Source: Spirochaetaceae bacterium 4572_59
GTDB taxonomy: Bacteria > Spirochaetota > Spirochaetia > DSM-2461
Length of the DNA stretch: 64,000 nucleotides
Reading direction: 5' to 3'
Assembly (NCBI GenBank): GCA_002084805.1
Contig: NBMC01000002.1
Location: forward strand, 62,001 to 126,000
Shown here in pieces: positions 44,227 through 63,073 of the stretch; the stretch's first letter is position 1; each line of letters opens with the position of its first letter. A program made the translations under genes and the position numbers. The notes under the pieces were generated by a model. That model had not been told where the DNA came from. It was given only the letters and a program-made list of their open reading frames with translations, and did no database searches.

Positions 44227-46035
44227 TTAACCTTCATACCTCTTTAAAATCTCAATAAGACGCTTATTATCTTTTTTGGAACGAACGGCAATACGGATGC
44301 AGTTTTTTTCCTCAAATCCTGATTTTCCATGCAGGTCTTTCAGCAGAATATTATGCTCTTTCAATATAGAGGCAACCAGTTTTGTACTATCCTTATCCTT
44401 AACACGGCATAAAAAGTAGTTCGCCTGAGAGTAATAGGGCTGCAGGTAGTTAATGTTCTCCAGTTTTTTAAAGAAACGGTCCCGCTCAGCGGCAATCTTT
44501 TGACAAGCCAGTAAATAACTCTTCTCATACTTGCCATAGATCTGCAGAAAGAACTCACCGAAGGAGTTGATATTCCAGATTGAGATCTTAGAACGGACCT
44601 GAGTCATGATATCCTTATTGCTAGAGGCCAGGACTCCCAGACGAATACCGGGAACACCGTAACTCTTGCTGATACTCTTCATAATCAGCAGATTGGGATA
44701 ATCCCGCAGGATCTTGTTTGAAATCAGAGTATTCTCAGGTCCTTCTGTCGAAAAATCCACAAAGGACTCATCCAGAACCAGGATTTTATCCCGCTTTTTA
44801 AAGCTTTCAAGAATAACAAAAAGATCCTGTTTAGAGATAAAATTCCCCGAAGGATTATCCGGATTTATCAGAACCAGAGCATCCGCCTTATCGCTCCAGC
44901 GGATAACATCCTCTTTGGAATAGCTGAAATCATCCTTCTCCACAGAAAAGAAAACCCTGTTTTTCTCTATGACCCGTTCGGCATACTCGTTAAAAGTAGG
45001 AAGGATAAAACCAACCCTGCGATCAGAGAGAACTGTCATCAGAGCATTAATCAGCTCAGCAGCCCCATTCCCTGTAAGAATGTACTCCTCATTCACATTA
45101 AACATCCTGGAACAGAGAAGATTCTGTGTGGCCAAGCCCGAAGGGTAATCCCGCAGGAGTGGATCAAAGCTGTGTTTCATCTCTTTGATCATGGTTTTAC
45201 CCGGAAAATAGGGATTTACGAGATAACAAAAATCCAGGAGATTGGGAAAACGCCAGTAACCGCCGAAGCGCTGCTGATACAATTTCAGCTTGTTATCATC
45301 AGAAAAGAGGAGTTCAGCATTACTCAGATCCTGTTTATCATCAATTTCATACCAGAGGCTCTCATCATCCAGAATACAGGCTTTCAGGTTTCTCTTATTG
45401 AAGAAATTAATAACAGAGAGGACCTGCTCATAGTACTCGTTCACCCCTTCAGAACTGATATAAGCCTTCAAAAAGGGGATATAACTCTTATGAATAAACT
45501 CTTTTGAAAGCTTATAGATATTTACAGTTTTATAGTACTTTTCAGATTCTTTATATTTGAAATCGGATTTGCCGACAAAACGAAGGATCTCCCTGTCCTT
45601 ACCGATCTCAACAACAGTTCCATCCATCCAGGGTCGGTGCTGGTCCACCAACACGGCATTTTCGTCGGGAGAATTTATGATACAGTCCAATACTTTTTTT
45701 TCAAAAATCAGATCACTTTCCAGGAGGATTGTCTCATCCTCCCAAAAGGAATCCTTTGCCATATAGAGAGAGTAGATATTGTTGGTTGTGGCATAATCAT
45801 GATTATAAACATACTCAACAGGAACCCCCTTGTATTCCGGGCCAATAAGATTCTCAACATCCTTCCCTTTATAACCGACCACTAATATTATCCGTGTCAG
45901 GGGATATTGAACCAGTATATCCAGGTTCCGTTCAATCAGGGTTTTATCCAGAACCTTGACCATACATTTTGTCTTATCTTCCGTATATTCCGCCAGGCGT
46001 CGGCCCATTCCGGCTGCCAGTATCAGTGCCTGCAT
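44227..46035 (-). CDS. pntC: bifunctional AEP cytidylyltransferase/AEP aminotransferase, PntC-like
   Basis: This 602-residue fusion has residues 1-240 as a MobA/GT-A-fold nucleotidyltransferase (LILAAGMGRRLAEYTEDKTK at the start; LLESDLIFEK near 105). Residues of about 245-602 are a class I aminotransferase of the histidinol-phosphate type. The PLP lysine is in KSISKSYGVPGIRLG near 455, with NPDNPSGNFI near 385. The same fusion is known from Treponema PntC, which makes CMP-2-aminoethylphosphonate. The aminotransferase would form AEP from phosphonoacetaldehyde, which the genes at 56800-59237 can supply. SD GGAAGG lies at the end of the upstream YidC-AP gene, so the genes are co-transcribed. 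Confidence 0.8.
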   Translation of the reverse strand: MQALILAAGMGRRLAEYTEDKTKCMVKVLDKTLIERNLDILVQYPLTRIILVVGYKGKDVENLIGPEYKGVPVEYVYNHDYATTNNIYSLYMAKDSFWEDETILLESDLIFEKKVLDCIINSPDENAVLVDQHRPWMDGTVVEIGKDREILRFVGKSDFKYKESEKYYKTVNIYKLSKEFIHKSYIPFLKAYISSEGVNEYYEQVLSVINFFNKRNLKACILDDESLWYEIDDKQDLSNAELLFSDDNKLKLYQQRFGGYWRFPNLLDFCYLVNPYFPGKTMIKEMKHSFDPLLRDYPSGLATQNLLCSRMFNVNEEYILTGNGAAELINALMTVLSDRRVGFILPTFNEYAERVIEKNRVFFSVEKDDFSYSKEDVIRWSDKADALVLINPDNPSGNFISKQDLFVILESFKKRDKILVLDESFVDFSTEGPENTLISNKILRDYPNLLIMKSISKSYGVPGIRLGVLASSNKDIMTQVRSKISIWNINSFGEFFLQIYGKYEKSYLLACQKIAAERDRFFKKLENINYLQPYYSQANYFLCRVKDKDSTKLVASILKEHNILLKDLHGKSGFEEKNCIRIAVRSKKDNKRLIEILKRYEG

Positions 46036-46038
46036 ATT

Positions 46039-48963
46039 CTACCTTCCTATGTAATCTGATTCGGGAACTCTGTTCCAGGAGGCAGGATCAAGTGCTTTTT
46101 CCGAAACAGTAAACTGCCTGTCCATCATAAAGGTTACTCCTTTATGAAGTTCATATTTATGATTTCCGATTCCCAGAATCTGAGGATCAAATTTTGCTTT
46201 ACTATCCAGAGAATGGCCCGTATAGGGATTTTTAAACTCTCCAAAGGGAGCCAGAAGAAGAGGTGCAGTATCAGCATTGCTCATAAAATCATCACTGATC
46301 TTAAGATCCCCCTCCCCCTGAAAGGGTTTATAGAGAAGAAGCGGGAAAAAAGCATTAAAGGGGATGCCATCCCCTTTCTGATCTGCCAGAGGAATAAGAG
46401 AACTATAGACTCCTTCCCGCCCATGATCCGCCACTATCACAATCTGCGTATTATCGTACACATCATTATCTTTCATCCACTGAAGCCATTCACCCACCTT
46501 TTTCATAACCGCAGTATCAGTATAGGCATAGGAAGCGGTCCCTTCAGAACCGAAATGCTCAATATCTTCTGAAGAATAATTAATTTTTTTCGGGGACAGC
46601 TGATAATTGCCATCAATCCCTCCCGGTTCATGGGTTGCCATATTATAGATAAAACTGAAGGAGGACTGTTCCTGAAAATAACTTAGTTCGGGCAGATACT
46701 CCAGGGTGCTCCATGGCTTCAGAGTCTCCATAAAATTCGGCCAGTTAGAAGTCTTTTCCCTTATGGCCTTATCAGGGTTCCCACTGAACCAGACACCATT
46801 ATCGTAAAGAATTTCCCTGAGGAAACTGGGAGCCATCCGAAAAATAGAAAACATGAAGAAAGACTTTCCCCTCTGAAGCAGATTATGAGGATCGGAGAGT
46901 TCCGGCAGATGTTCATGGAGCCAGTAATTCGTATATTTGCCGTGAAGAGAGGAAACAGTCACATCCATATCCCTCAGGCGGGGGCCTTTATAGCGGGAAT
47001 CTATCGCACTGTTAGAGGGATCGGAGATATAGACAGTGCTACCCATCTCCAAAAAGAGTTTGGGTAGAACAGTCCATGCCTCCATTACCTTATGATTCAC
47101 AGGCAAGTCCGGCCGTTTTAACATGGCCAAGGGGGTATAATCATAGCCTCCCAACAGAGCGGGAAGCCCAATAATAGTACAGTTCCCGTAGGAGATGGTA
47201 TTTTTATACCAGGTAAATCCACTATATACCTGCTCCAGTTCCGGAGCAGCCTCCAAAACGGCCTGGAAGGATCCGCCGAGAGCCCTGTCCAACATAAGAA
47301 CCACCGTATTGGGTTCTGTTCTGGAAAAAGCAATTTCCGGCATCACCTTATCATTCTGATACACAGGAGTGGCACTGGCAGAATTCCTTTTCAACTCCAC
47401 ATAGGAATATAAAGACAGCGAAATAAGGAGCAACAGTATAAGATTACTGCCGTTGACAATCCATTTTATCTTTTTAAAAATAATGAGAACACAAACAAAA
47501 AGAGTCACGAGCCCCATAACAAAAAGGTTCAATAAACGCTGTAATTTCGTATTATCTATCTCTTCTGAAAACTGCAGGGAATCATTGATAAAACCGTAAT
47601 GTCCCGTAAAAATAAGAAAGTTTACAAGGGAACAGATCAAAAGGATAAATACAATGATAGAAAAGGGCTTTCTGTATTCAGAGGAGTTTGCATTGTAGAG
47701 AAACAGGGGGATTAGAAAAAGATAAAGAACTCCCCACACCAGCATATTAAAATAATCGGAACGGTGCAGCAGAATCTCTCCGGGAACATTATTCAGAAGC
47801 AGCAGAGGAATGACACAAAGGGCCAGGATCATAAGAGAAGAGAGAGACTTTTTCATAAGAGAATTTGATTGACCATCCGAAAGAAGTTTCCGCGTTTCCA
47901 ACTGTCCGTTCACCCAGCCCAGGAAGGGGAGAAAAATCGCTGCCATAAGCAAAACCGTGAAAGTCAGATAGAAGTAGGGAAAAAAACGGTTATCCAGAGG
48001 GTTGGTCAGATCCTTTCCGATAATAAACCAGATCCCCATCAGGACAAGGGCATTAATCTGAAAGGAAAAATTGTTTTTATACCGGCTCAGAAAGTAAAGA
48101 GACCCGCTTAAACCCATATACAGAAAAGAGAGTTTTAAGAGAGTTCTGAGTATGGCCGTTTTATCCAGAAGGAAAGTACTTGTAACAAACAGAAATGCCA
48201 GGAGACCAAAGGAAACAACAAACAGGGCAGCCATCCAGAGAGGTCTCAGGATAATTTTACCTTTTATACGGTTTATCCTGCCGGGAAGCCGACTCATCCG
48301 GGACATAACAGAGCTGTCTTTCAGAAAGATCCGTACCATGGAAAAGATATTATTACAGGTCCAGTAAAGCAGGAGCCCGGAAGCAGAATTATAGAGAAGC
48401 ACCAGAAACAGACCGGCCATACCAAAAAGCTGTATACGGCTTCTGAGAGTCTGCCCCTTGGTAAAGCGCAGGGAGGCAATGATATTGATACCGGTCATCA
48501 CAAAGGGCATGATATTGATCGGCCCCAGTAGATGGTCGGCCTGAGAGAGGTCTGTAAAAATAAGAAAACTACTCCCCTCCAGAGGAGTAAAATGGGAGAG
48601 GAAGTTATAGGCCGCCATAAAGAAGGGAATTTGAATAAGAAGCCCGAAACTGGAGCGGATAGACATAAAGGGGGAGTAGCCGTTATGACGGTACAGGGTC
48701 CTCAAATAGAAGTGACGTTCATCTCCCTTGAAAACCGCCTTAATCTCTTCGCTTCTCTTCTTCATCCTTTTCAGGATATCCTGCTCCTCTCTCTGCCAGA
48801 GATCGGCCAGGGAGTAGAAAGGAGAAATTATTGTATTGACAGCTATACTCAGAAGGATGATAGAGAGCCCGTAACTACCGAGGGCAGAGTGAAAAACAGT
48901 GAGGATTGTCTCCATCAGAGACATAAGGGGACGAATTAAGGCATTAAACAGTGTGTGCATCAT
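46039..48963 (-). CDS. YidC/Oxa1-like membrane domain fused to an alkaline-phosphatase/sulfatase-superfamily transferase domain (copy 1)
   Basis: This is a 974-residue protein. Residues 1-220 match the YidC core: YGLSIILLSIAVNTIISPFY, a charged cytoplasmic loop (EEQDILKRMKKRSEEIKAVF), LLIQIPFFMAAYNF and SGLLLYWTCNNIFS. About eight further helices follow to residue 535. The periplasmic domain (545-974) has NTVVLMLDRALGGSF near 548 and YGNCTIIGLPALLGGYD near 592, likely holding the Thr nucleophile. THEPGGIDGN near 778 and the metal motif IVIVADHGREG near 842 complete the active-site pattern. This is the LtaS/EptA/MdoB-like phosphotransferase fold. The ATG overlaps the stop of the upstream glycerophosphotransferase-like gene. 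The role in phosphonate-glycan assembly is inferred. Confidence 0.8.
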   Translation of the reverse strand: MMHTLFNALIRPLMSLMETILTVFHSALGSYGLSIILLSIAVNTIISPFYSLADLWQREEQDILKRMKKRSEEIKAVFKGDERHFYLRTLYRHNGYSPFMSIRSSFGLLIQIPFFMAAYNFLSHFTPLEGSSFLIFTDLSQADHLLGPINIMPFVMTGINIIASLRFTKGQTLRSRIQLFGMAGLFLVLLYNSASGLLLYWTCNNIFSMVRIFLKDSSVMSRMSRLPGRINRIKGKIILRPLWMAALFVVSFGLLAFLFVTSTFLLDKTAILRTLLKLSFLYMGLSGSLYFLSRYKNNFSFQINALVLMGIWFIIGKDLTNPLDNRFFPYFYLTFTVLLMAAIFLPFLGWVNGQLETRKLLSDGQSNSLMKKSLSSLMILALCVIPLLLLNNVPGEILLHRSDYFNMLVWGVLYLFLIPLFLYNANSSEYRKPFSIIVFILLICSLVNFLIFTGHYGFINDSLQFSEEIDNTKLQRLLNLFVMGLVTLFVCVLIIFKKIKWIVNGSNLILLLLISLSLYSYVELKRNSASATPVYQNDKVMPEIAFSRTEPNTVVLMLDRALGGSFQAVLEAAPELEQVYSGFTWYKNTISYGNCTIIGLPALLGGYDYTPLAMLKRPDLPVNHKVMEAWTVLPKLFLEMGSTVYISDPSNSAIDSRYKGPRLRDMDVTVSSLHGKYTNYWLHEHLPELSDPHNLLQRGKSFFMFSIFRMAPSFLREILYDNGVWFSGNPDKAIREKTSNWPNFMETLKPWSTLEYLPELSYFQEQSSFSFIYNMATHEPGGIDGNYQLSPKKINYSSEDIEHFGSEGTASYAYTDTAVMKKVGEWLQWMKDNDVYDNTQIVIVADHGREGVYSSLIPLADQKGDGIPFNAFFPLLLYKPFQGEGDLKISDDFMSNADTAPLLLAPFGEFKNPYTGHSLDSKAKFDPQILGIGNHKYELHKGVTFMMDRQFTVSEKALDPASWNRVPESDYIGR

Positions 48964-50234
48964 TGAGTAAGCTCCTTGCGGATTGAAAGGAGGGCCTTAA
49001 CAGCTTCCTGACCGGAACGCCCTTTGTGCTTCCATGCGACTTCACTCAAATCGGCTATTTTTCTATCCAGTTCCTTATCATGAGAGAGAGATCTGATCAT
49101 TCCGGGCACCTCATCCATACCGGGAGCATCCAGATTGATAATAGCCCCGCTTTCCTTAACCATATAGTAGGGATTTTCTTTTGTAATATCGCTCAGCTCG
49201 AATCCTCGGGGATCCAGCTCAAAATTAAATGTGATAACAGGCCGGGAGAAGAGGAAGATAAAGTCATACATGACCGATGAGAAGTCGGAAATCATCACAT
49301 CCGCCCTGTTCATGGCCAGGATGTTATCCTTTTCGAAGTCCCATTCGATATTGTCATAGCCGTCAAGCTCCTTTTTAAGATCCTCCAGCATGGGGATTTC
49401 GGAGATGGAACTCTGAGGATGGGGACGAAGAATCAGATTAAGACCGCTTTCCGCCAGAGGTTTCAGCATGGCAAGGCCATATTTTGTCAGAAGACCGTTA
49501 GGTCCCCAGGAGGGAGAAACCAGAACGGTAAAATCCCTGTTTTCACGGGGTGGGAGGCTCTTCTTTCGCTCGGCAAGGACATCCAGATAGGTACAGCCTA
49601 CGATACGAAGATCCTTTTCCTTTGTATTCCGAAGCTCTTCGAGTTCCCTGATAATAGCAGCCTGATGATCTCCGTTCATCAGAACTGAATCGTAAAAATC
49701 CAGGCTGTAAAGCCTGTAGGTGGCGGTATTATCAGTGGCGTGAAAGATATGACTGTAGTGTTTTACCCGCTTGGACCGTTTAAACTGCAGCACATCCAGA
49801 CCGGGGGTTGTGGTCACACAGATATCGGCTTCCAGCATATTCAGATGCAGGTAGGCTTTATTTCCCTGGCCGATAAAGCGGGTTTCAATAAAGGGGGAAT
49901 TATACTTTAGACCCGGATCGTCCGGATCCGCGCTGAAGTAGGAACAGCTTTCCTCCCGGGCGGCAAACTCCTCCACCAGGGGCTTAAACACATTCCAGTA
50001 CTGTTTGCCTTCGGAAAACAGAACAATGGAGTAAGAACTCCCCTTCTCTCTTGCTCCGGGAGAGAAGAATTTGAGTTTCATGATAACCTGTTTTACAAAG
50101 AAATAGGCGGATATGACGATTCCCGCCATGGCGGAAAACAGGAGACTCCCCGTGGCCGGGTCAATATAGGAGTAGGCCGGGGCGGTCATGAGAATCAGGA
50201 ACAGAAAAACAAAGAGTTTCTTTGGGTTTATCAT
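48960..50234 (-). CDS. membrane-anchored CDP-glycerol glycerophosphotransferase-like protein (copy 1)
   Basis: This is a 424-residue protein. Two hydrophobic segments at the N-terminus flank the motif YIDPATGSLL (residues 22-31), probably a short periplasmic loop. The cytoplasmic domain is of the TagB/TagF type. It has VLVSPSWGPNGLL near 231, LILRPHPQSS near 268 and MISDFSSVMYDFIF near 314. The family transfers glycerol or ribitol phosphate from a CDP donor. Here CMP-activated phosphonates are the likelier donors, since pntC is in the same operon. A -10 TATAAT lies at 50274-50269. It overlaps the next gene as ATGA. Confidence 0.8.
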   Translation of the reverse strand: MINPKKLFVFLFLILMTAPAYSYIDPATGSLLFSAMAGIVISAYFFVKQVIMKLKFFSPGAREKGSSYSIVLFSEGKQYWNVFKPLVEEFAAREESCSYFSADPDDPGLKYNSPFIETRFIGQGNKAYLHLNMLEADICVTTTPGLDVLQFKRSKRVKHYSHIFHATDNTATYRLYSLDFYDSVLMNGDHQAAIIRELEELRNTKEKDLRIVGCTYLDVLAERKKSLPPRENRDFTVLVSPSWGPNGLLTKYGLAMLKPLAESGLNLILRPHPQSSISEIPMLEDLKKELDGYDNIEWDFEKDNILAMNRADVMISDFSSVMYDFIFLFSRPVITFNFELDPRGFELSDITKENPYYMVKESGAIINLDAPGMDEVPGMIRSLSHDKELDRKIADLSEVAWKHKGRSGQEAVKALLSIRKELTQ

Positions 50235-50330: not shown

Positions 50331-51814
50331 ATGCTAGGCAAATCCCTCATGATATCCTATGCTAAACAGATCGAGAGGATTTACAGATTGAATAAGAAAA
50401 AACTCTTTTCCGATTACCTTTTCAACCTAAGCCGGATGATTTTGAATATCGGACTGCCCATAATAACCCTGCCCTTTGTTCTGAACAGAATCGGACCTGA
50501 AAATTACGGTATTTTTTCTTTCAGCAATTCCATTATCTCCTACTTTACACTGGCTGCCATCCTGGGTATTCCCGATTATGCCTCCCGTGCCATCGCCAGA
50601 CTGGAGGATAGAGAATCCATCAAACAGACGGCCTCCGAGATATTTGCAATTCAGTTTATTTCGGTTTCAATCGCTCTGATTCTTTTCTTTGCCGTTTTTT
50701 ATCCTCTGGCCCCCCTCGAATACAAAGCTGTCTTCCAGATTTTATCCATTATGATCGGGGCCTGCTACTTTAATACGGAGTGGTTTTTTATAGGCCGACA
50801 GAAGTTCAAATATATAGCTCTCCGGTCTATGATAGTAAAGCTTCTGAATGTTGCAGCTATTCTGCTGATTATACGGGATGGAGATAATTCCTATAAGTAT
50901 GCTCTGATTGTCGCCCTGACAAATCTGGGAAACGGGATTGTCAATATTGCAGGAACCCTCCCCTATCTGCGTTTTAAAAACCTGGAACTGAAACAGCACC
51001 TCCGGCCGATAATGATTCTGTTCGGCTTAAGTATTACGGGATTAATAAATACGAATATAGACAAGACCCTGACGGGAGCTCTGGTAGGGCCGCTTTATGT
51101 CGGTTATTATGCGGTGGGATTCCGTCTGACCAGGATTATACAGCAGTTGTTTTCGGCGTATTTCCGCGGGTAACGGCCTCTCTGGCTCACAATGATGAAA
51201 AAGAATCGGATAAACTGATCCGTTTCAGCATGGATTATATTTTTCTTTTTTCCATGCCCATAATCCTCGGATTGATCCTTTATGGAGATGATCTCATCAG
51301 AATTCTTTTTAAACCGGAGCTGCTCCCTGCGGTACCCGGATTGATCATACTGACAGGGACCGTCCCCGTCATAGCTATTTTAAATGTCATCAGAAGACAT
51401 GTTCTCCTGTCCAGGGATAAGGATAAGGTAATTTTTATTCTCGCATTGATTACAACGGGTACTAATATCGTTGCAAATCTGCTCCTGGTTCCGCCGTATA
51501 AACATATTGGAGCATCCATCGCGACCTTATTAGCAGAAACAGCAGGAATGGGGTATGGGATGTGGTATATCCGGAAGAAGTTCCATATAAAACTTTTTTA
51601 TCCCGGCCAGCTTAAATATCTATTGGCTACTCCGGTACTGATTGTTCCATGGAAGATGGAAGGCCTTTTTCCCGCAGGATTCTCATCACTGACCGTACTT
51701 TTGCTACAGATTCTGTTCAGTATGACCCTTTACTTTTTAATTCTCTTCATAATCAGAGATGACGTATTTTACAAATATACGAAGCGCTACGGGAAAAGCT
51801 TTATAAAGCGCTGA
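50331..51814 (+). pseudogene. Wzx-type polysaccharide flippase, frameshifted
   Basis: The first part (50331-51173) encodes about 280 residues of a MATE/RfbX flippase (PLPIITLPFVLNRIGPENYG-like N-terminus, many membrane helices) and ends early with QQLFSAYFRG. From 51158 the other frame continues with VFPRVTASLAHNDEKESD and then four or five further helices to the stop at 51814. Together they make about 494 residues, a normal Wzx length. A single missing base near 51157 explains the break. It is either a recent inactivating mutation or a sequencing error. The gene would flip a lipid-linked repeat unit for the surrounding locus. The start may instead be the ATG at 50349. Confidence 0.8.
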
Positions 51815-55666: not shown

Positions 55667-56794
55667 TTAAGCTTTCAGTAAATTCAAAAGTTCGTCCTGA
55701 TCTTCTACTTTCCGGGGATTATTCCCCAGCCTCTGCACATTCACACTGGAGAAAAAATCATCAAATTCCTGATCAATATCCATGATTTTACCTATATCAC
55801 TTTCCAGCCCGCACTCCCTGAGCAGCTTATTTAGAAAAGTATCGGCCTCCAGGGCTGAAGAAGCACCCAATAAGTGACATAATTCAAGAATCCTTTCCTG
55901 TACTGCTTTCACCGTGGTTGAAGCATCTGAGCGACTCTCTACAGATATTCGGCTGTTAAAAACAAAGAACTTTCCCAGCAGAAGACCAACCGCATGGCCA
56001 TGGGGAACGCCATAATGGGATGTCAGATAATAGCAGAAAGCATGGGCTGCCGTGGTTTTAGTCAGATTGATCGCCCGTCCCGCCAGATTGGCAGCCTTCT
56101 GCATGGCAAGCCTATCCGCATTATCAGGAGCGTTTACCGCACTTAATAGATGCTTTGTTATCAGACCGATTGCTTCCCGGGAATAGCCCCGGGATTCATC
56201 ACTACCATTGACCGACCAGTAGGACTCCACAGCCTGAGCCAGGGCATCAAAGCCGGTACAGGCTGTCTGATAGGGAGACATCGTTTTCGTAAGGGTATAA
56301 TCCAGAACAACAGATTCCGGCAGCAGATCCTGATAAGCCAGGGAGTATTTCATCTTCTCCATATAGACAACCGCAAAGTGGGTAGACTCGCTCCCTGATC
56401 CGGATGTGGTCGGTATGGCAATCAGATTGATATGCTCATTGGAGACCAGCTTTCGGCTGCCCCGGATATAATCTGCGGGATCATGTTTCTGACAGGACAG
56501 AGCCTTAATAAGCTTGGCCACATCCATGGGACTGCCCCCGCCCACGGCAATGATCGTAAAAGGTTTATCCCTATCCATCAGGTTCATACCCTTTACAACA
56601 TCCTCCAGCTGCGGATTAGACTTAAAATCAAAAAATTGGATAACATCTTTTCCCTGCAGTTTTTCAGAAAGAACGGAAGCCGCACCGCTGTCAATATAGG
56701 ATTTTCTCCCTGTTACCAGCAGAACACGGTCCTTAATTTTCAACTGTTTAAAATCAAGATCAGCTAAAGTACATTCCAGTATATTTTGCATCAT
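55667..56794 (-). CDS. iron-containing alcohol dehydrogenase, probable phosphonoacetaldehyde reductase
   Basis: This 375-residue group III alcohol dehydrogenase has the nucleotide motif AVGGGSPMDVAKL near residue 84, IPTTSGSGSEST near 127, the metal-binding region TGFDALAQAVES near 181 and AHAFCYYLTSHYGVPHGHA near 255. It lies five bases after phosphonopyruvate decarboxylase. Phosphonate clusters often place such an enzyme here to reduce phosphonoacetaldehyde to 2-hydroxyethylphosphonate. The same aldehyde can be transaminated by the PntC fusion, so this would be a branch point. The activity is inferred from context. Confidence 0.75.
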   Translation of the reverse strand: MMQNILECTLADLDFKQLKIKDRVLLVTGRKSYIDSGAASVLSEKLQGKDVIQFFDFKSNPQLEDVVKGMNLMDRDKPFTIIAVGGGSPMDVAKLIKALSCQKHDPADYIRGSRKLVSNEHINLIAIPTTSGSGSESTHFAVVYMEKMKYSLAYQDLLPESVVLDYTLTKTMSPYQTACTGFDALAQAVESYWSVNGSDESRGYSREAIGLITKHLLSAVNAPDNADRLAMQKAANLAGRAINLTKTTAAHAFCYYLTSHYGVPHGHAVGLLLGKFFVFNSRISVESRSDASTTVKAVQERILELCHLLGASSALEADTFLNKLLRECGLESDIGKIMDIDQEFDDFFSSVNVQRLGNNPRKVEDQDELLNLLKA

Positions 56795-56799
56795 AATCC

Positions 56800-57921
56800 C
56801 TAATTCCGGTCTAGTTCCGCCATAAAGGCTTTTTTACATTCCACTGGCGAGACAGTGGGGCGTCCCAGGTCCTTACGTGAACCCTTTTTTACACGTACTT
56901 CAATCAGAGAAAGAACTTTATTCTCAGCAACTTCCTGAAGAGCTTTTTTCAGCTCCCCGGGATTTGAGCAGGAGAAACAATTTTTATAACCGCATGAGGA
57001 TGCAATTTTATCCAGACTCAAATCAGAAGCGACCGTCGGCTGGCCACCCACAGAGTCATGGGCACCGTTATTCAGAACAAAATGCACCAAATTATCAGGG
57101 GATACACTGGCATTCACCGCCAAAGATCCCATATGCATCAGTACAGACCCATCTCCGTCCACACAGTAAACCCGCTTCTCCTTCCGGCTCAATGCAACTC
57201 CCGCTGCGATTTGAGAAGTATGCCCCATGGAACCGACAATAAGGAAGTCCCTGTTATGTCCCTGTTCCCGTTTTCCCCTCAGTTCAAACAGTTCACGGGA
57301 AATCGTTCCAGTGGTGGAAACAAAAAAACCGGAATCATCCGTATGTTCCAGAATCACATCCAAAGCCTCTTCCCGGGAAAAGTCTGACAGATCAGCCTTT
57401 TTATGCTGTAGTTGGTAGGGCTCAAAACAACCCTTTTTCACAACAATGGCAAAGGGTAATTCCTGATCTAGATAGCTACGGGCCTTAAGCAGGACTCCCT
57501 TAATATCACTGTTTTCATCTATCACAGCATAATCGATGCCCAGGCACTCCAGAAGAGACGTAGTAATTTTTCCCTGTTTAACATGCTGGGGTTCATCTTT
57601 TTTGCCCGGTTCTCCCCGCCAGCCCACAAGTAGAAGGAGCGGGATACGGTAAACATCCCGGTCGGTAAGAGAAACAAGGGGATTTACCGTATTTCCCAGA
57701 CCGGAATTCTGCATATAGACCAGAGAAGGCTTGCCTGTTCCAAGGTAATGTCCTGCGGCCAATGCGACGGAATTCCCCTCATTAGCGGCGATAATATGCT
57801 GATGATCGCTTTTGCTGTCACTCAGGAGGGCACAAAAATCCTTTAAAAGCGAATCGGGTACACCCGTATAAAAATCTATGAACTGATCCAGCTCGGAAAT
57901 AAATTCTGAAGGTTTAATCAT
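56800..57921 (-). CDS. ppd: phosphonopyruvate decarboxylase
   Basis: This 373-residue thiamine-diphosphate enzyme has the N-terminal YTGVPDSLLKDFC near residue 17, the conserved Glu region AANEGNSVALAAG near 44, and the ThDP/Mg motif from CVDGDGSVLMHMG (near 256) to HFVLNNGAHDSVGGQP. The length is typical. It decarboxylates phosphonopyruvate to phosphonoacetaldehyde, the step that makes the PEP mutase reaction irreversible. SD GGGAG. It lies 17 bases after pepM. Confidence 0.93.
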   Translation of the reverse strand: MIKPSEFISELDQFIDFYTGVPDSLLKDFCALLSDSKSDHQHIIAANEGNSVALAAGHYLGTGKPSLVYMQNSGLGNTVNPLVSLTDRDVYRIPLLLLVGWRGEPGKKDEPQHVKQGKITTSLLECLGIDYAVIDENSDIKGVLLKARSYLDQELPFAIVVKKGCFEPYQLQHKKADLSDFSREEALDVILEHTDDSGFFVSTTGTISRELFELRGKREQGHNRDFLIVGSMGHTSQIAAGVALSRKEKRVYCVDGDGSVLMHMGSLAVNASVSPDNLVHFVLNNGAHDSVGGQPTVASDLSLDKIASSCGYKNCFSCSNPGELKKALQEVAENKVLSLIEVRVKKGSRKDLGRPTVSPVECKKAFMAELDRN

Positions 57922-57938: not shown

Positions 57939-59237
57939 TTATTGGATAAGAGAGATAATCTCTTTAATGGGCATACAGTTTGCATCCGCCTCTTCGGCCC
58001 TTTCATTCAACAGAATAGATTCCGCCGTTTTTGTCATCATAGGATAGGCACTTCTGAGTAGATGATTCGCATAAATGACAATAGAGATCCCTCTCTTCTG
58101 AAGTTCTTCTTCTTTTATATGTGAATACATGCTGGGAACTGCCACCAGAGGGACCTTTTTGGAAAAACTTTGATATTTATCACAGAAGGCAAAGAGGTTT
58201 ACCGGATCCTTCTCTTTGGAATGAATCATAATACCGTCGGCACCGGCATCAATATAGGCCTCAGCCCGCAACAGGGCATCATCCACACCCTTTCCAAGGT
58301 TCAGGCTTTCAATCCGGGCGATAATCATAAAATCGTCTGTAACCTGGGCGTCCTTCCCCACTTTGATTTTATGGCAGATATTCTCAATGGAATCCTGCTT
58401 CTGAAGATCATCACTCTCAAAGAGTGAGTTCTTCTTCAATCCTGTTTTATCTTCGATAATTATAGCGGACACACCAAGGCGTTCCAGAGACTTAACGGTA
58501 TAGACAAAGTGTTCGGGGATTCCCCCGCTGTCTCCATCGTAGATAATGGGTTTGGTAGTCACTTCCAGGATATCATTGACTGTATGCTGACGGGAGGTCA
58601 GGTCCACACACTCTATATCCGGTTTGCCCTTATTGGTGGAGTCGGTCAGACTGCTGAGCCACATGGCATCGAATTCACAGTTTTTGCCGTCTTTCACGAC
58701 TTTGGTCTTTTCAACAATCAGACCGGTCAGACCGCTGTGGGCTTCCATAACGCGGACAATGGGTTTGGCATGGAGCAGACGCCGCAGTTTTTTCAGGCGG
58801 ATATCCGGGGTGGTTCCGATCTCTTTTAAGGCATTATTCAGCTTGGTGGAAGAGATTCCCGGAGTATAGTGGGGTTCTATCAATTCACCGCCCCACTCTG
58901 CCAGGGCATCGATAACCTTCTGACGGGTTTCCCTCTGAACCCCCTCTTTCCAGTCATCCCCATGAACAACATAATCGGGTTTCAGCATTCTCAAATTGGG
59001 AACATAGTCAAGGGTTTCCTGAGGAATAACTTCATGAACACCTTTCAGGTTCTCTACAATGACCTTTCTCTGCTCGAAATCCATATAGGGCAGGCGTTTA
59101 TAGCTGGCAATGGCTGTATCGGTCAGAACACCGACGACTACTTCACCGTACTGTTCTGCCGTATGGATTATATTCAGATGACCCGGGTGGATCAGATCGG
59201 CGCTCATGGCCACATAAACTGTTTTATTTTTGTTCAT
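57939..59237 (-). CDS. pepM: PEP mutase fused to an N-terminal TagD/RibF-like cytidylyltransferase
   Basis: This is a 432-residue fusion. Residues 1-140 are a HxGH-type nucleotidyltransferase: [18 protein letters not shown] near 12 and [15 protein letters not shown] near 124. Residues of about 150-432 are PEP mutase with the diagnostic [10 protein letters not shown] motif near 259, [12 protein letters not shown] near 232 and [15 protein letters not shown] mutase makes the C-P bond from PEP. Fused nucleotidyltransferases are known in phosphonate loci and activate the head group as a CMP derivative. Since PntC also carries a cytidylyltransferase of another fold, this one may act on hydroxyethylphosphonate; that is inference. 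Confidence 0.92.
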
Positions 59238-59283: not shown

Positions 59284-61836
59284 CTATTTCATAATTTGTG
59301 AAACCGGAGTTCCTTTGTCTTTCCCTAATCCGATGTTTCCTGCTTCAATCATTTTTGCCGGCAGGGAGTCGTATTTATCCGTACAGCTTCCTCTTAAATT
59401 ATACTTCAGCAGAGACTCATCCCTGGAGATGTAGGCCATGACGGGAATGAAAGCCTCTTGCAGTACGGCAACATCATAATCGTTGTATTTATTATTTTCC
59501 GGCCATTTTATGGCCAAAAACATACCAAAGCGATCCCGAATCAAGTCTCCTGATATTTCATCTGCTTTATAATTCCGAAGAGACGTACAGTCACCCTTTA
59601 AATAGGGACCATGATCTCCTGCAATAATTATTATTGAATTCGGGTTATGCTCCAGAATAGTTTCAATATCCTCTGTCATTTCCTTATTGGCGACATCGAG
59701 ACGTTCATAGTAATCATCAATTTCCGTTGAAAGACACTTACCGGAATTCTGACTATGTCCGGGACCGGTATGTGTATACAGAAATGTGGGGGCATTAGTT
59801 GATGCCATGATTTCCCGTTTCTTGGCAATCCACTCTTCCTTTGTAAAATTGCCCAGTTTTACTTCATCATCAAACTTGAATTCTCCCAGAACAATGCTTT
59901 TGGCGATAGAAAACATCCTGTTCTGGTAATTTTCTGTATCAACCCTCTCCGGAAAGATGTAGTTCCCATCAAAACTGCTGGTTCCAAGCACGTAGTATTC
60001 TTTTAAAACATAATTCGTTTCATAACCGACACTCTGCAGATAATCATCCACAAGGCTTTTCCCGGAGATTACTTCCCGGCTTTCCCTGTCTGTATAGAAT
60101 TGATCCGTCATATTCAGGGCTTTGGCAATACTCCCCAATGATGCTGGAAAAAGGGTATATACATCCGTATAAAACCTGAAATCCAGAGACTTCAGATAAT
60201 CAAACTGTTTATCATTATCAACCCCGTAATGGTTCATCATATCAGGATCGGCATAAGCATCGTATATGAGAAAATACACACTGGGTCGCTCATCGGGCAG
60301 GCTCTTATCCACAGCGGATAAACTCTGTCCGATGGGAGAAACCTCCTCCGAAGCCGTCTCCGTACTGATACGACCCTTATCCAACAGACTGGCTCCCATA
60401 TTGATAAGAATAACCAGAGAGAGGAAGATCACAATATAATCAATTCTGATTTTCCGGCTGATATATATGGAAAAACAAATTGTAATAAGAAGGATAACAA
60501 TAAGATTAAGGAAGCTCTCTTCCGCCCGGACACCCACCAACTGGTTAATCAGAGGCATAAGATAAAAAACCACAGGAGTCAGAACACAAAGGATAATACT
60601 GGTCTCCCTTTTAAGCTTCTCTCCCAGAAATATTTGAAAAGCCAGATACAGGACGATGGGAACCACAGTCAGGAGAATAATAAAAGCAATGGAAGAAGAA
60701 AGATCAAAATACCCGGGGTTTAATAAGACATAATACAGGGGTACAAGTATAACAGGAATAACATGCTTGATATCCAATCCGGCAATAAACTTTTTGTTCA
60801 GACGGGGCAGGCGAATCTGTTCCATCAGATAGGTAAAAAGCAGAAGCGCATAAACAAAGAAGAAGAGGGCCTCCTTCTTTTTAGCGGAAAGCTTACAAAA
60901 GTCAAAAAAACAACGATGCTGAATCTGAATAAAAATCAGGATCAAAGCTACAAAAACAGTAAATCCTACGATTCTTTTTATTTTAGGAGCTTTATCTGTT
61001 CCTCTGTTCATCAGGTAAAGAATGGCCAGAGCATTCAGAATGGCTAGCCAGTTGGCCAGATTGACACTCAGGGAAACACTGAAGGATCCCGAAAGCACTC
61101 TTCTAGCAAGAAACCAGTAGATAATGGAAATCAGCAGGATTATATTGGACCCGGCCAGCAGGGCCAGACTGTTCCACTGAATAGTCAGCCTGGGAAGTTT
61201 GTTGTTTTTACAGAATTTCCGCAGATTCAGGCCGAGAGAGATCATATTACTCATGGTCCAGTACAGCAGTATGGATGAAGGCTTATCGTAGAGAAAGAAC
61301 AGGAAGATCAGAGGAACAATAACAAACTGAATACTCTTTCTATTCTCGTTGCTGGAATAGACCATTCCGGAAAACAAATTTACAATCGTCATAAAGATGG
61401 GTAAAAGGTTAATATTAAAATACATCTGGTCCTGAAGACTCAAATCTCTGAGGAACAGAAAAGCCTCTCCGTTCATAGAAGCATTTTCCACCAGATAGAC
61501 ATAGGCAGCTATAAAAAAGGGTATCTGAATCAGAACAGGAAGGATATCCAGCAGTTTATAGTAATTTTTGTAGCTGTGAATTTTATATAACTCTTTAATA
61601 TAAAAATGCTTTTCCACATTGTTATGAATATGCTCCATTTCATTCATGGAATCAAAGAGATCCGTATATTTGGAGTTAAAGCCGTTCAGGCCTCTGTTTA
61701 CGACACTCTGAAGAAGGTTTAATAGAATGGAGATAACAATACTCAGCCCTATTATGGCCAGGCCATAACTTGAGAAAACAGAATGGAGGAAATTAAATAT
61801 CACATCGAATAGCGATAAGAATATTTTTGCTAACAT
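59284..61836 (-). CDS. YidC/Oxa1-like membrane domain fused to an alkaline-phosphatase/sulfatase-superfamily transferase domain (copy 2)
   Basis: This 850-residue protein has the same architecture as the protein at 46039-48963. The YidC core (1-225) has [52 protein letters not shown] and [14 protein letters not shown]. Six to eight more helices reach residue 500. The periplasmic catalytic domain has [14 protein letters not shown] near 518 and [14 protein letters not shown] near 560 with the probable Ser/Thr nucleophile. [12 protein letters not shown] near 687 and the metal motif [15 protein letters not shown] near 738 follow. Its catalytic motifs differ clearly from copy 1, implying another substrate. 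It follows its partner gene by one base and precedes pepM by 46 bases. Confidence 0.8.
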
Positions 61837-61837
61837 A

Positions 61838-63073
61838 TTAAATCCTTTCGTTTAATTCCAGTAACTGTCTGGCCGCCACGGGACCTGCATTCTGAAAATT
61901 GAACAGGTACTTTTCTCTGATTGCACTAAAGGCACTTTTATCCGTTTTGACAGTATTGATGATCTCATCAATACTGCCCACATCTTTTTCATCTACTATT
62001 TTTCCGATTTCATTGATAATTTCATAAATACTGTTTCGCGTACTGATATCATAGCCTTCATAACCATACATTTTCTGATCTGAGTCTATAACAATGGGCA
62101 TCCTCTGATACAGAAAGCAGTAGTCCCACACGATACCGGAAAAGTCCGCGATCATTACCCGGGATTTTCCCAGAGAGGACTGGTTGGAGATCTCCTTATC
62201 GAATATAAAGTTCTTATGATTCTCAAATTCATTCTCAATATCCCGCATCTTGTCATTCTCTGAAATATAGGACTGTGGATGAGGCCTGAAAATAACCTTA
62301 AAATCGGCAGATAACAGGGTATTCATAATGTCTTTTGAGTGTTTTAGAAGCGCTGATTTATCACCCCAGGTAGGAGCCACCAAAACATAATCATCACAGA
62401 ACTCTTCGCTTATATTGAAATCATCATAGTAGGTACAACCAGTTTCCAGCAGGAGCTTTGGCTCTCTGTTTCTGAGGGATTCCAGATAGCGCAGGTTATC
62501 GACCTGAAACTGTGAAGTACACATTACTGAATCAAAATAGTCAAAGGCGAATTTCTTATAGGTGTGAATATCCACAGGGGCATGGAGCAGATGACAGTAG
62601 TGTTTTACATATCTTGACTTTCGAAGTTTCAGAATCTCCAGCTGTGGGGTTGTCATCACAACTATTTTAGCCTTGATATGGTTCAGCATGATAATAGATT
62701 TATTGATATCTCCCAGATAAAGGAAGTTACAATACTCTGAGTCGATCTCTCTACAGTGATCGTCTTTGTCAGAACTGAGATAGTTGAAGTGAACCCCGGC
62801 CTTGCACAGCGCTTCTACAAGAGGTTTAAAAACATGCCAGTAGTTGTTCCCTTCATTATAAATAACAATCTGGTCTGTAAAATCAAGATTATTGGATTTT
62901 TTTGAAGAGCTGAAAAAACCCATGGACCTGTAAAAGATACTCTTCAGATAATAGATGATTGTAATTACAATACTTATGAGAAAGCTTATTAAAATGCTGC
63001 CTGTGCCGGGATCTATATAGGCATGTGCATCCTGCACAAAAGCAAATAATAGGATAAGAGTGATTAATGGCAT
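61838..63073 (-). CDS. membrane-anchored CDP-glycerol glycerophosphotransferase-like protein (copy 2)
   Basis: This 411-residue paralogue of the protein at 48960-50234 has N-terminal hydrophobic segments around AYIDPGTGSILISF (residues 18-31). Its TagB/TagF-like domain has YVLVAPTWGDKSALLKH near 226, IFRPHPQSYISEN near 260 and MIADFSGIVWDYCF near 306. It probably transfers a CMP-linked phospho- or phosphono-group in the cytoplasm. The gene directly precedes the second YidC-AP fusion and then pepM. Serine of the usual DFSS/DYSS motif is followed by Gly here. SD AAGGAA. Confidence 0.78.
   Translation of the reverse strand: MPLITLILLFAFVQDAHAYIDPGTGSILISFLISIVITIIYYLKSIFYRSMGFFSSSKKSNNLDFTDQIVIYNEGNNYWHVFKPLVEALCKAGVHFNYLSSDKDDHCREIDSEYCNFLYLGDINKSIIMLNHIKAKIVVMTTPQLEILKLRKSRYVKHYCHLLHAPVDIHTYKKFAFDYFDSVMCTSQFQVDNLRYLESLRNREPKLLLETGCTYYDDFNISEEFCDDYVLVAPTWGDKSALLKHSKDIMNTLLSADFKVIFRPHPQSYISENDKMRDIENEFENHKNFIFDKEISNQSSLGKSRVMIADFSGIVWDYCFLYQRMPIVIDSDQKMYGYEGYDISTRNSIYEIINEIGKIVDEKDVGSIDEIINTVKTDKSAFSAIREKYLFNFQNAGPVAARQLLELNERI

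Follow-up and report, generated by a model that had tools for sequence, protein, structure and literature searches.

Introduction

Alkaline-phosphatase-superfamily transferases of the EptA/LtaS kind obtain their head groups at the outer face of the membrane, where phospholipids serve as donors. In most bacterial phosphonate (Pnt) pathways, the steps that follow CMP-activation have been called enigmatic; LicD-like enzymes are named near pnt genes there, and YidC, insertases, sulfatases and glycerophosphotransferases are not mentioned (PMC6697681). In a survey of phosphocholine decoration, the CDP (Lic) route and PptA were never found to coexist (PMC10434233). Within YidC/Oxa1-type insertases, the basic residue of the groove has been described as strictly conserved across all homologues, and E. 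coli YidC tolerates the exchange R366N provided that position 517 carries an aromatic side chain (PMC8920935). Lipid scrambling by E. coli YidC, Oxa1 and Get1 has also been observed, both in vitro and in simulations (PMC10491306).

Here we describe a spirochaete locus in which a YidC-like domain and a transferase-type domain are joined in one chain. A sequence-only reading of this locus knew of no function described for such an architecture; in agreement with it, no description of a PF02096 and PF00884 fusion (YidC with a sulfatase-type domain) was found in the open-access literature, to which the search was confined.

A YidC-like domain fused to a transferase-type domain

The analyzed stretch of 64,000 nucleotides from Spirochaetaceae bacterium 4572_59 (the window) encodes FUS1 (copy 1), which appears in the ORF listing of the window as a 974 aa frame with an ATG start at 46039-48963. 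The sequence-only reading had these coordinates right, and the strand is minus; the motifs that it quoted (LLIQIPFFMAAYNF, SGLLLYWTCNNIFS, DHG and THEP) are all found in FUS1. Three regions can be distinguished. Residues 1-220 (48304..48963, minus strand) form a YidC/Oxa1-like domain with Asn43 as the groove residue, as delimited by PF02096, the Foldseek match to 6al2 and alignment; residues 31-212 match PF02096 (60KD_IMP) with E 1.5e-21 and 77.5 bits against a Pfam cutoff of 35, and the TIGR03592 (yidC_oxa1_cterm) score is 84.7 against a cutoff of 84.3. Residues 221-540 (47344..48303, minus strand) comprise a basic linker and extra membrane helices according to AlphaFold secondary structure, with the helices modelled at 241-530 and the linker at 220-340 in poor confidence. 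Residues 541-974 (46042..47343, minus strand) form a domain of the alkaline phosphatase/sulfatase superfamily, assigned by PF00884, Foldseek and conservation; the PF00884 sulfatase match spans residues 551-905 with 26.1 bits, barely over the cutoff of 25.

The AlphaFold model of FUS1, for which an alignment of 75 rows was the input, has a mean pLDDT of 85.3 and a pTM of 0.80, with values mostly between 80 and 96 in the YidC part and mostly between 90 and 98 in the catalytic domain. The YidC part matches E. coli YidC (6al2) over 203 columns with an rmsd of 3.6 in Foldseek, and the five-helix core with its cytoplasmic hairpin is present. The catalytic part matches PbgA, MCR-1, LtaS and phosphonate monoester hydrolases. 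In a comparison of the family profile with structures, the YidC match reached 2e-14; weaker matches were obtained for sulfatases, phosphonate monoester hydrolases, LtaS and MCR-1. The structure prediction that the sequence-only reading had proposed as a check, comparing the whole protein with YidC and LtaS/EptA, thus recovered both the YidC fold and the transferase fold, and bears out its assignment of a YidC-type core, extra helices and an attached superfamily domain.

The Thr nucleophile that had been suspected is Thr596; this position is Thr in 74 of 75 aligned fusions and Ser in copy 2. The residues D559, D846 and H847, assigned as metal ligands by conservation, are invariant in all 75 aligned fusions, as are H778 and K879. 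The Cys-x-Pro-x-Arg sulfatase motif is absent from this domain of the fusion. Given the invariance of its catalytic residues, the domain should be active as a phospho-form enzyme.

A second copy, homologues and split forms

FUS2 (copy 2), a paralogue of 850 aa, is located 10 kb from copy 1 at 59284-61836 on the minus strand. Its YidC/Oxa1-like domain, with Ser as groove residue, covers residues 1-212 (61201..61836, minus strand) and was assigned by alignment and PF02096 (2.7e-17, 63.7 bits, cutoff 35). Residues 506-850 (59287..60321, minus strand) align as a divergent alkaline-phosphatase-superfamily domain with Ser566 at the nucleophile position; it scores 16.1 bits for PF00884, below the cutoff of 25, and most resembles the separately encoded transferases at the split loci described below. 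The AlphaFold model of FUS2 has a pLDDT of 64.9 and reaches good confidence only for the YidC part and portions of the catalytic core, and FUS2 sits on a long branch with uncertain placement within the family.

A scan of genome contigs with copy 1 yielded 80 loci with more than 100 related ORFs, mostly full fusions of about 850-1035 aa. The hosts are Treponema, Brachyspira, Clostridia, Desulfovibrionaceae, an Anaerolineaceae bacterium, Duodenibacillus and a Tannerellaceae bacterium, and the ORFs also occur in tandem arrays of up to five (L051). At the split loci L050 and L065, a YidC-like protein of 238-286 aa is followed by TagF and then by a transferase of 594-607 aa, and genes for PepM, Ppd and an NTPT-AEPT fusion adjoin them; L119 appears to represent the same contig as L065. 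L185 has another split pair of 221 and 664 aa. The presence of both domains in one chain is therefore well supported, and a sequencing or assembly joining error, which the sequence-only reading had named as the condition against its proposal, is ruled out as the origin of the fusion by the more than 100 related ORFs together with the split forms.

Broken and multiplied copies were also observed. L185, from a treponeme-like genome (G159), is an array in which TagF, fusion and split genes are densely packed; some of the copies seem to be disrupted (367 + 578 aa, and other short pieces), which suggests rapid turnover or on/off variation. At L067 (8001-10695, the same genes as in L166), a fusion copy is broken up into frames of 147, 597 and 142 aa and adjoins intact genes for TagF, NTPT-CobD and a fusion. 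Single Clostridia genomes of 1.9-2.7 Mb (G303, G264, G284) have up to 11-12 fusion hits.

The TagF-like partner

Mapping of the genomic neighbourhood, also proposed in the sequence-only reading, revealed the key partner that the reading itself had missed: a TagF-like gene beside each copy. TagF1 (48960..50234, minus strand), a TagF-like transferase (PF04464) with the N-terminal membrane motif YIDPATGS, overlaps FUS1 by 4 nt, and TagF2 (61838..63073, minus strand), with the motif YIDPGTGS, lies 1 nt upstream of FUS2. The two proteins match PF04464 with 38.2 and 27.9 bits at a cutoff of 22.1. The N-terminal motif Y.DP..G (consensus YIDPGTGS) is invariant in the TagF-like proteins, and so are the histidines H162, H165 and H272 in TagF1 numbering. 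A Wzx-like polysaccharide flippase at 50331-51814 on the plus strand of the window is found in two frames (280 + 194 aa), as either a pseudogene or a sequencing error.

Across the scanned loci, a TagF-like gene is the commonest neighbour of the fusion, being found at 40 loci with a median distance of 4 nt and sharing the strand of the fusion in 41 of 42 cases. Free of the bias that comes with starting from fusion loci, a survey of 198 spirochaete genomes shows the TagF clade in 44 and at least two PF02096 genes in 48 of them, with both in 43; in other words, the extra YidC-like gene accompanies TagF in 43/44 genomes, and TagF is absent from 149/150 genomes without the extra gene. In the sole spirochaete genome with TagF and no extra YidC-like gene (G033), TagF is at a contig end (L122); the five genomes with an extra YidC and no TagF all bear one genus label (g35). 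In the Bacillota order of the genome with the Saccharofermentans locus (G198), the fusion occurs in 70 of 143 genomes, including all 68 genomes with TagF, and TagF in 68 of the 70 fusion genomes, when the TagF clade is delimited at E < 1e-90; six genomes with weaker TagF matches only, near 1e-60 and without the N-terminal motif region, were left out. The Fisher values for the two data sets, 1e-36 for spirochaetes and 4e-39 for the order of G198, overstate independence since the genomes are related, and the pattern recurs in two phyla. TagF was further found in 10/10 checked fusion genomes from other lineages. That the TagF-like protein is an almost obligate partner of the fusion is thus well supported. 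Fusions outnumber it, with about 350 hits versus about 140 for TagF when summed over the tables of the order of G198, and up to 12 fusion hits per genome.

Head-group supply genes

The gene 3 nt downstream of FUS1 (44227..46035, minus strand) encodes a bifunctional protein with an NTP transferase (LicC/PntC-like) and a CobD/6oux-like PLP decarboxylase. It scores 178 bits for TIGR01140, below the cutoff; its C-terminal half best matches PDB 6oux, a threonine-phosphate-decarboxylase-like enzyme (158 bits), followed by CobD (98 bits), and the match to PntC-AEPT 6pd1 is confined to the N-terminal half. From these matches, its product would more likely be CDP-ethanolamine or CDP-aminopropanol than CMP-AEP. 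An AEP transaminase function was excluded for this protein, which belongs to class I/II and is closest to 6oux and CobD; a PhnW-type (class V) AEP transaminase is not found in the window cluster either, where an iron-type alcohol dehydrogenase is present instead. A stand-alone CobD-like decarboxylase related to the C-terminal half is encoded elsewhere in the same genome (G000:C15:89723-90826).

Downstream of FUS2, the first gene (57939..59237, minus strand) encodes a PEP mutase with an N-terminal cytidylyltransferase domain in a Fom1-like arrangement (TIGR02320, 386.5 bits; PF01467), followed by phosphonopyruvate decarboxylase (Ppd; 56800..57921, minus strand; TIGR03297, 492.8 bits) and an iron-type alcohol dehydrogenase (55667..56794, minus strand; PF00465; TIGR03405 160 bits, below cutoff). 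The latter recurs beside PepM at other loci and is a probable phosphonoacetaldehyde reductase yielding 2-hydroxyethylphosphonate (HEP). The Fom1 arrangement makes CMP-HEP (PMC6697681), and the copy 2 cluster would likewise make CMP-HEP, with the alcohol dehydrogenase supplying HEP.

Different supply genes stand beside TagF and the fusion at different loci. The HEP-branch set (PepM with cytidylyltransferase, Ppd and alcohol dehydrogenase) is found at window copy 2, L118, L081, L075 and L110; an AEP module (PepM, Ppd and NTPT-AEPT) at L037, L065 and L117; NTPT fused to the CobD-like decarboxylase at window copy 1, L022, L062 and others; NTPT fused to a HisC-like transaminase, perhaps for a CDP-activated amino alcohol such as serinol, at L168 (9795-11765) and L171 (7846-9837); and NTPT fused to a choline/ethanolamine kinase at L176 and L180. 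A lone cytidylyltransferase is a further type. The predicted head-group modules, as these neighbourhoods show, are interchangeable while TagF and the fusion stay constant. NTPT-CobD was ruled out as a fixed partner, being present in 13 of 198 genomes, nine of them TagF-positive.

The sequence-only reading had suggested that the YidC-like groove holds or flips a lipid-linked phosphonate donor. The phosphonate neighbourhood stands, with its genes adjoining copy 2; the proposal fits copy 1 less well, which adjoins the NTPT-decarboxylase fusion and more likely handles a phosphoethanolamine-like group. Of the 48 spirochaete genomes in which an additional YidC-like gene is present, only 16 also have PepM, versus 10 of the 150 others, so that a general tie of the architecture to phosphonates is not upheld and a strictly phosphonate function is ruled out. 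Two loci in genus g3 (L104 in G159 and L105 in G151) have PepM, Ppd and NTPT-AEPT with TagF or the fusion absent within about 10 kb; other phosphonate transferases therefore probably exist.

A proposed relay and its alternatives

Both folds, the intact catalytic residues, the near-obligate TagF partnership and the interchangeable modules, as models and alignments show them, are the basis on which we propose, with a probability of roughly 45%, that TagF and the fusion form a two-enzyme relay decorating cell-surface glycans with phosphorus head groups. In the cytosol, the head-group module would produce a CMP- or CDP-activated group (CMP-HEP for pair 2 and probably CDP-ethanolamine for pair 1). 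At the inner face, the TagF-like protein would take the phospho- or phosphono-group off the nucleotide and attach it to a membrane lipid, either diacylglycerol or a polyprenyl lipid. The hydrophilic groove of the YidC-like domain would then pass the lipid-linked group across the bilayer, or hold it there, and at the outer face the alkaline-phosphatase-superfamily domain would load the group on Thr596 and hand it over to a glycan, much as EptA, MCR-1 and LtaS use phospholipids as donors. The lipid acceptor, the bilayer crossing and the glycan target are parts that we infer.

The reasoning for the relay is as follows. Since outer-face enzymes of this type need lipid donors, a CMP/CDP pathway would be useless to them unless a cytosolic enzyme first loads a lipid, and TagF, as the only constant candidate, is proposed for this step. 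A lipid loaded at the inner face must cross the membrane; movement through a YidC-type groove, as the sequence-only reading had it, is chemically reasonable given the lipid scrambling shown in vitro for E. coli YidC (PMC10491306), though this may be a side property. The split forms at L050 and L065 keep the YidC-like protein, TagF and transferase together in one phosphonate operon or neighbourhood, which argues for a joint function of the YidC part and the enzyme, and against a stray anchor. Several fusions per TagF would fit one shared donor used by several acceptor-specific transferases. PS decarboxylase was not found in the own genome (E 1e-10) and is present in 10/44 TagF-positive versus 73/154 other spirochaete genomes, counts that are confounded by phylogeny; ordinary PE would thus often be no obvious donor.

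Known TagF/LicD-type enzymes place CDP-activated groups straight on glycans or teichoic chains, which weighs against a lipid intermediate. In the cytosol, TagF might accordingly use a lipid-linked glycan as the direct acceptor of the activated group, with the fusion acting later and separately, either by adding a second group from bulk phospholipid or by trimming outside, and with the YidC-like part as a membrane anchor or TagF dock. PF04464 enzymes are known to transfer directly from CDP-glycerol, the invariant N-terminal membrane motif of TagF could serve for docking, and direct transfer by LicD is the accepted CDP-choline route (PMC10434233). However, this explanation accounts neither for the near absence of TagF without the fusion in two phyla nor for a YidC fold retained even when split off, and the missing PS decarboxylase of the own genome also speaks against it; we consider it unlikely.

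The YidC-like domains form a branch of their own. In a tree of 20 canonical spirochaete YidC with 75 fusions and two split forms, the separating branch has a support of 100/99, and the own genome encodes, besides FUS1 and FUS2, a canonical YidC on a different contig (590-aa frame). The position equivalent to E. coli R366 carries K or R in all 20 canonical proteins, and is non-basic in all 75 fusions (N, S, T, G or Q) and in both split forms (N). The groove positions P48, W201 and N205 are conserved in the fusions, and W201 of FUS1 corresponds to E. coli residue 517, a position that is Trp in 75/75 fusions. Given that R366N is tolerated with an aromatic residue 517 (PMC8920935), the groove is probably still hydrated, insertase activity would be compatible with the missing basic residue, and its loss marks divergence but does not prove that insertion has been given up. 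The YidC-like part could hence still be an insertase or chaperone, the fusion modifying nascent secreted or membrane proteins much as PptA modifies pilin and TagF providing the donor; the five-helix core is conserved, and W201 could offset the missing charge (PMC8920935). The basic residue is nevertheless lost throughout the fusions and split forms while retained in all 20 canonical YidC compared from the same phylum, a canonical YidC already exists in the genome, and glycosyltransferases and other glycan genes are among the neighbours, where no pilin-type target was noticed. Altogether this function is improbable.

Very improbable is an LtaS-like polymerase extending a TagF-made lipid into a teichoic-acid-like polymer: LtaS is among the Foldseek matches and many hosts are Clostridia, but the head groups AEP and ethanolamine, which offer no hydroxyl to esterify further, would form a cap rather than a chain (HEP could chain), and several different fusions occur per cluster.

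Returning to the relay, we advance with still more reserve its evolutionary counterpart, in which a branch of the Oxa1/YidC superfamily would have abandoned the insertion of proteins to serve solely as a lipid scramblase, or as a module that holds lipids, and would couple a cytosolic TagF-like enzyme to an extracytoplasmic transferase, served by interchangeable phosphonate, phosphoethanolamine and phosphocholine modules.

Comparison with known systems

TagF and the fusion offer a concrete candidate gene pair for the enigmatic post-CMP steps in many spirochaetes and gut Clostridia (PMC6697681). If true, the relay would provide a physiological setting for the lipid scrambling by YidC in vitro (PMC10491306), and would unite the CDP-donor and lipid-donor logics of decoration that were found only apart in the phosphocholine survey (PMC10434233).

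The fusions share with YidC/Oxa1/Alb3 insertases (PF02096, TIGR03592) the fold, the five-helix core, an above-cutoff Pfam match and the groove positions P48, W201 and N205, but lack the basic groove residue and the large P1 domain, form their own clade and are fused or operon-linked to an enzyme. With EptA/MCR-1, LtaS and PbgA they share the fold, the Thr nucleophile, the metal ligands and N-terminal membrane helices; in contrast to these, with a Foldseek identity of 10-14%, they have a YidC-like domain in front, a dedicated TagF partner and apparently several head groups. The partner TagFs belong to the same Pfam family as TagF/TarF glycerophosphotransferases (PF04464) and have the conserved histidines, but are about 410-450 aa long with the invariant N-terminal Y.DP membrane motif, and TarF/TarL models barely match them (17 bits). 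We know of no YidC domain in PptA, the pilin phosphocholine/phosphoethanolamine transferase. PptA otherwise resembles the fusion as a periplasmic enzyme of the alkaline phosphatase superfamily that is thought to use lipid donors (PMC10434233). The Lic (LicA/C/D) phosphocholine and Pnt (PepM/Ppd/AEPT/PntC) phosphonate pathways likewise activate head groups with CMP or CDP for surface decoration (PMC6697681, PMC10434233), whereas here the LicD step is apparently replaced by TagF and the fusion. Both domains are thus of known kinds, and their combination and tie to TagF look new.
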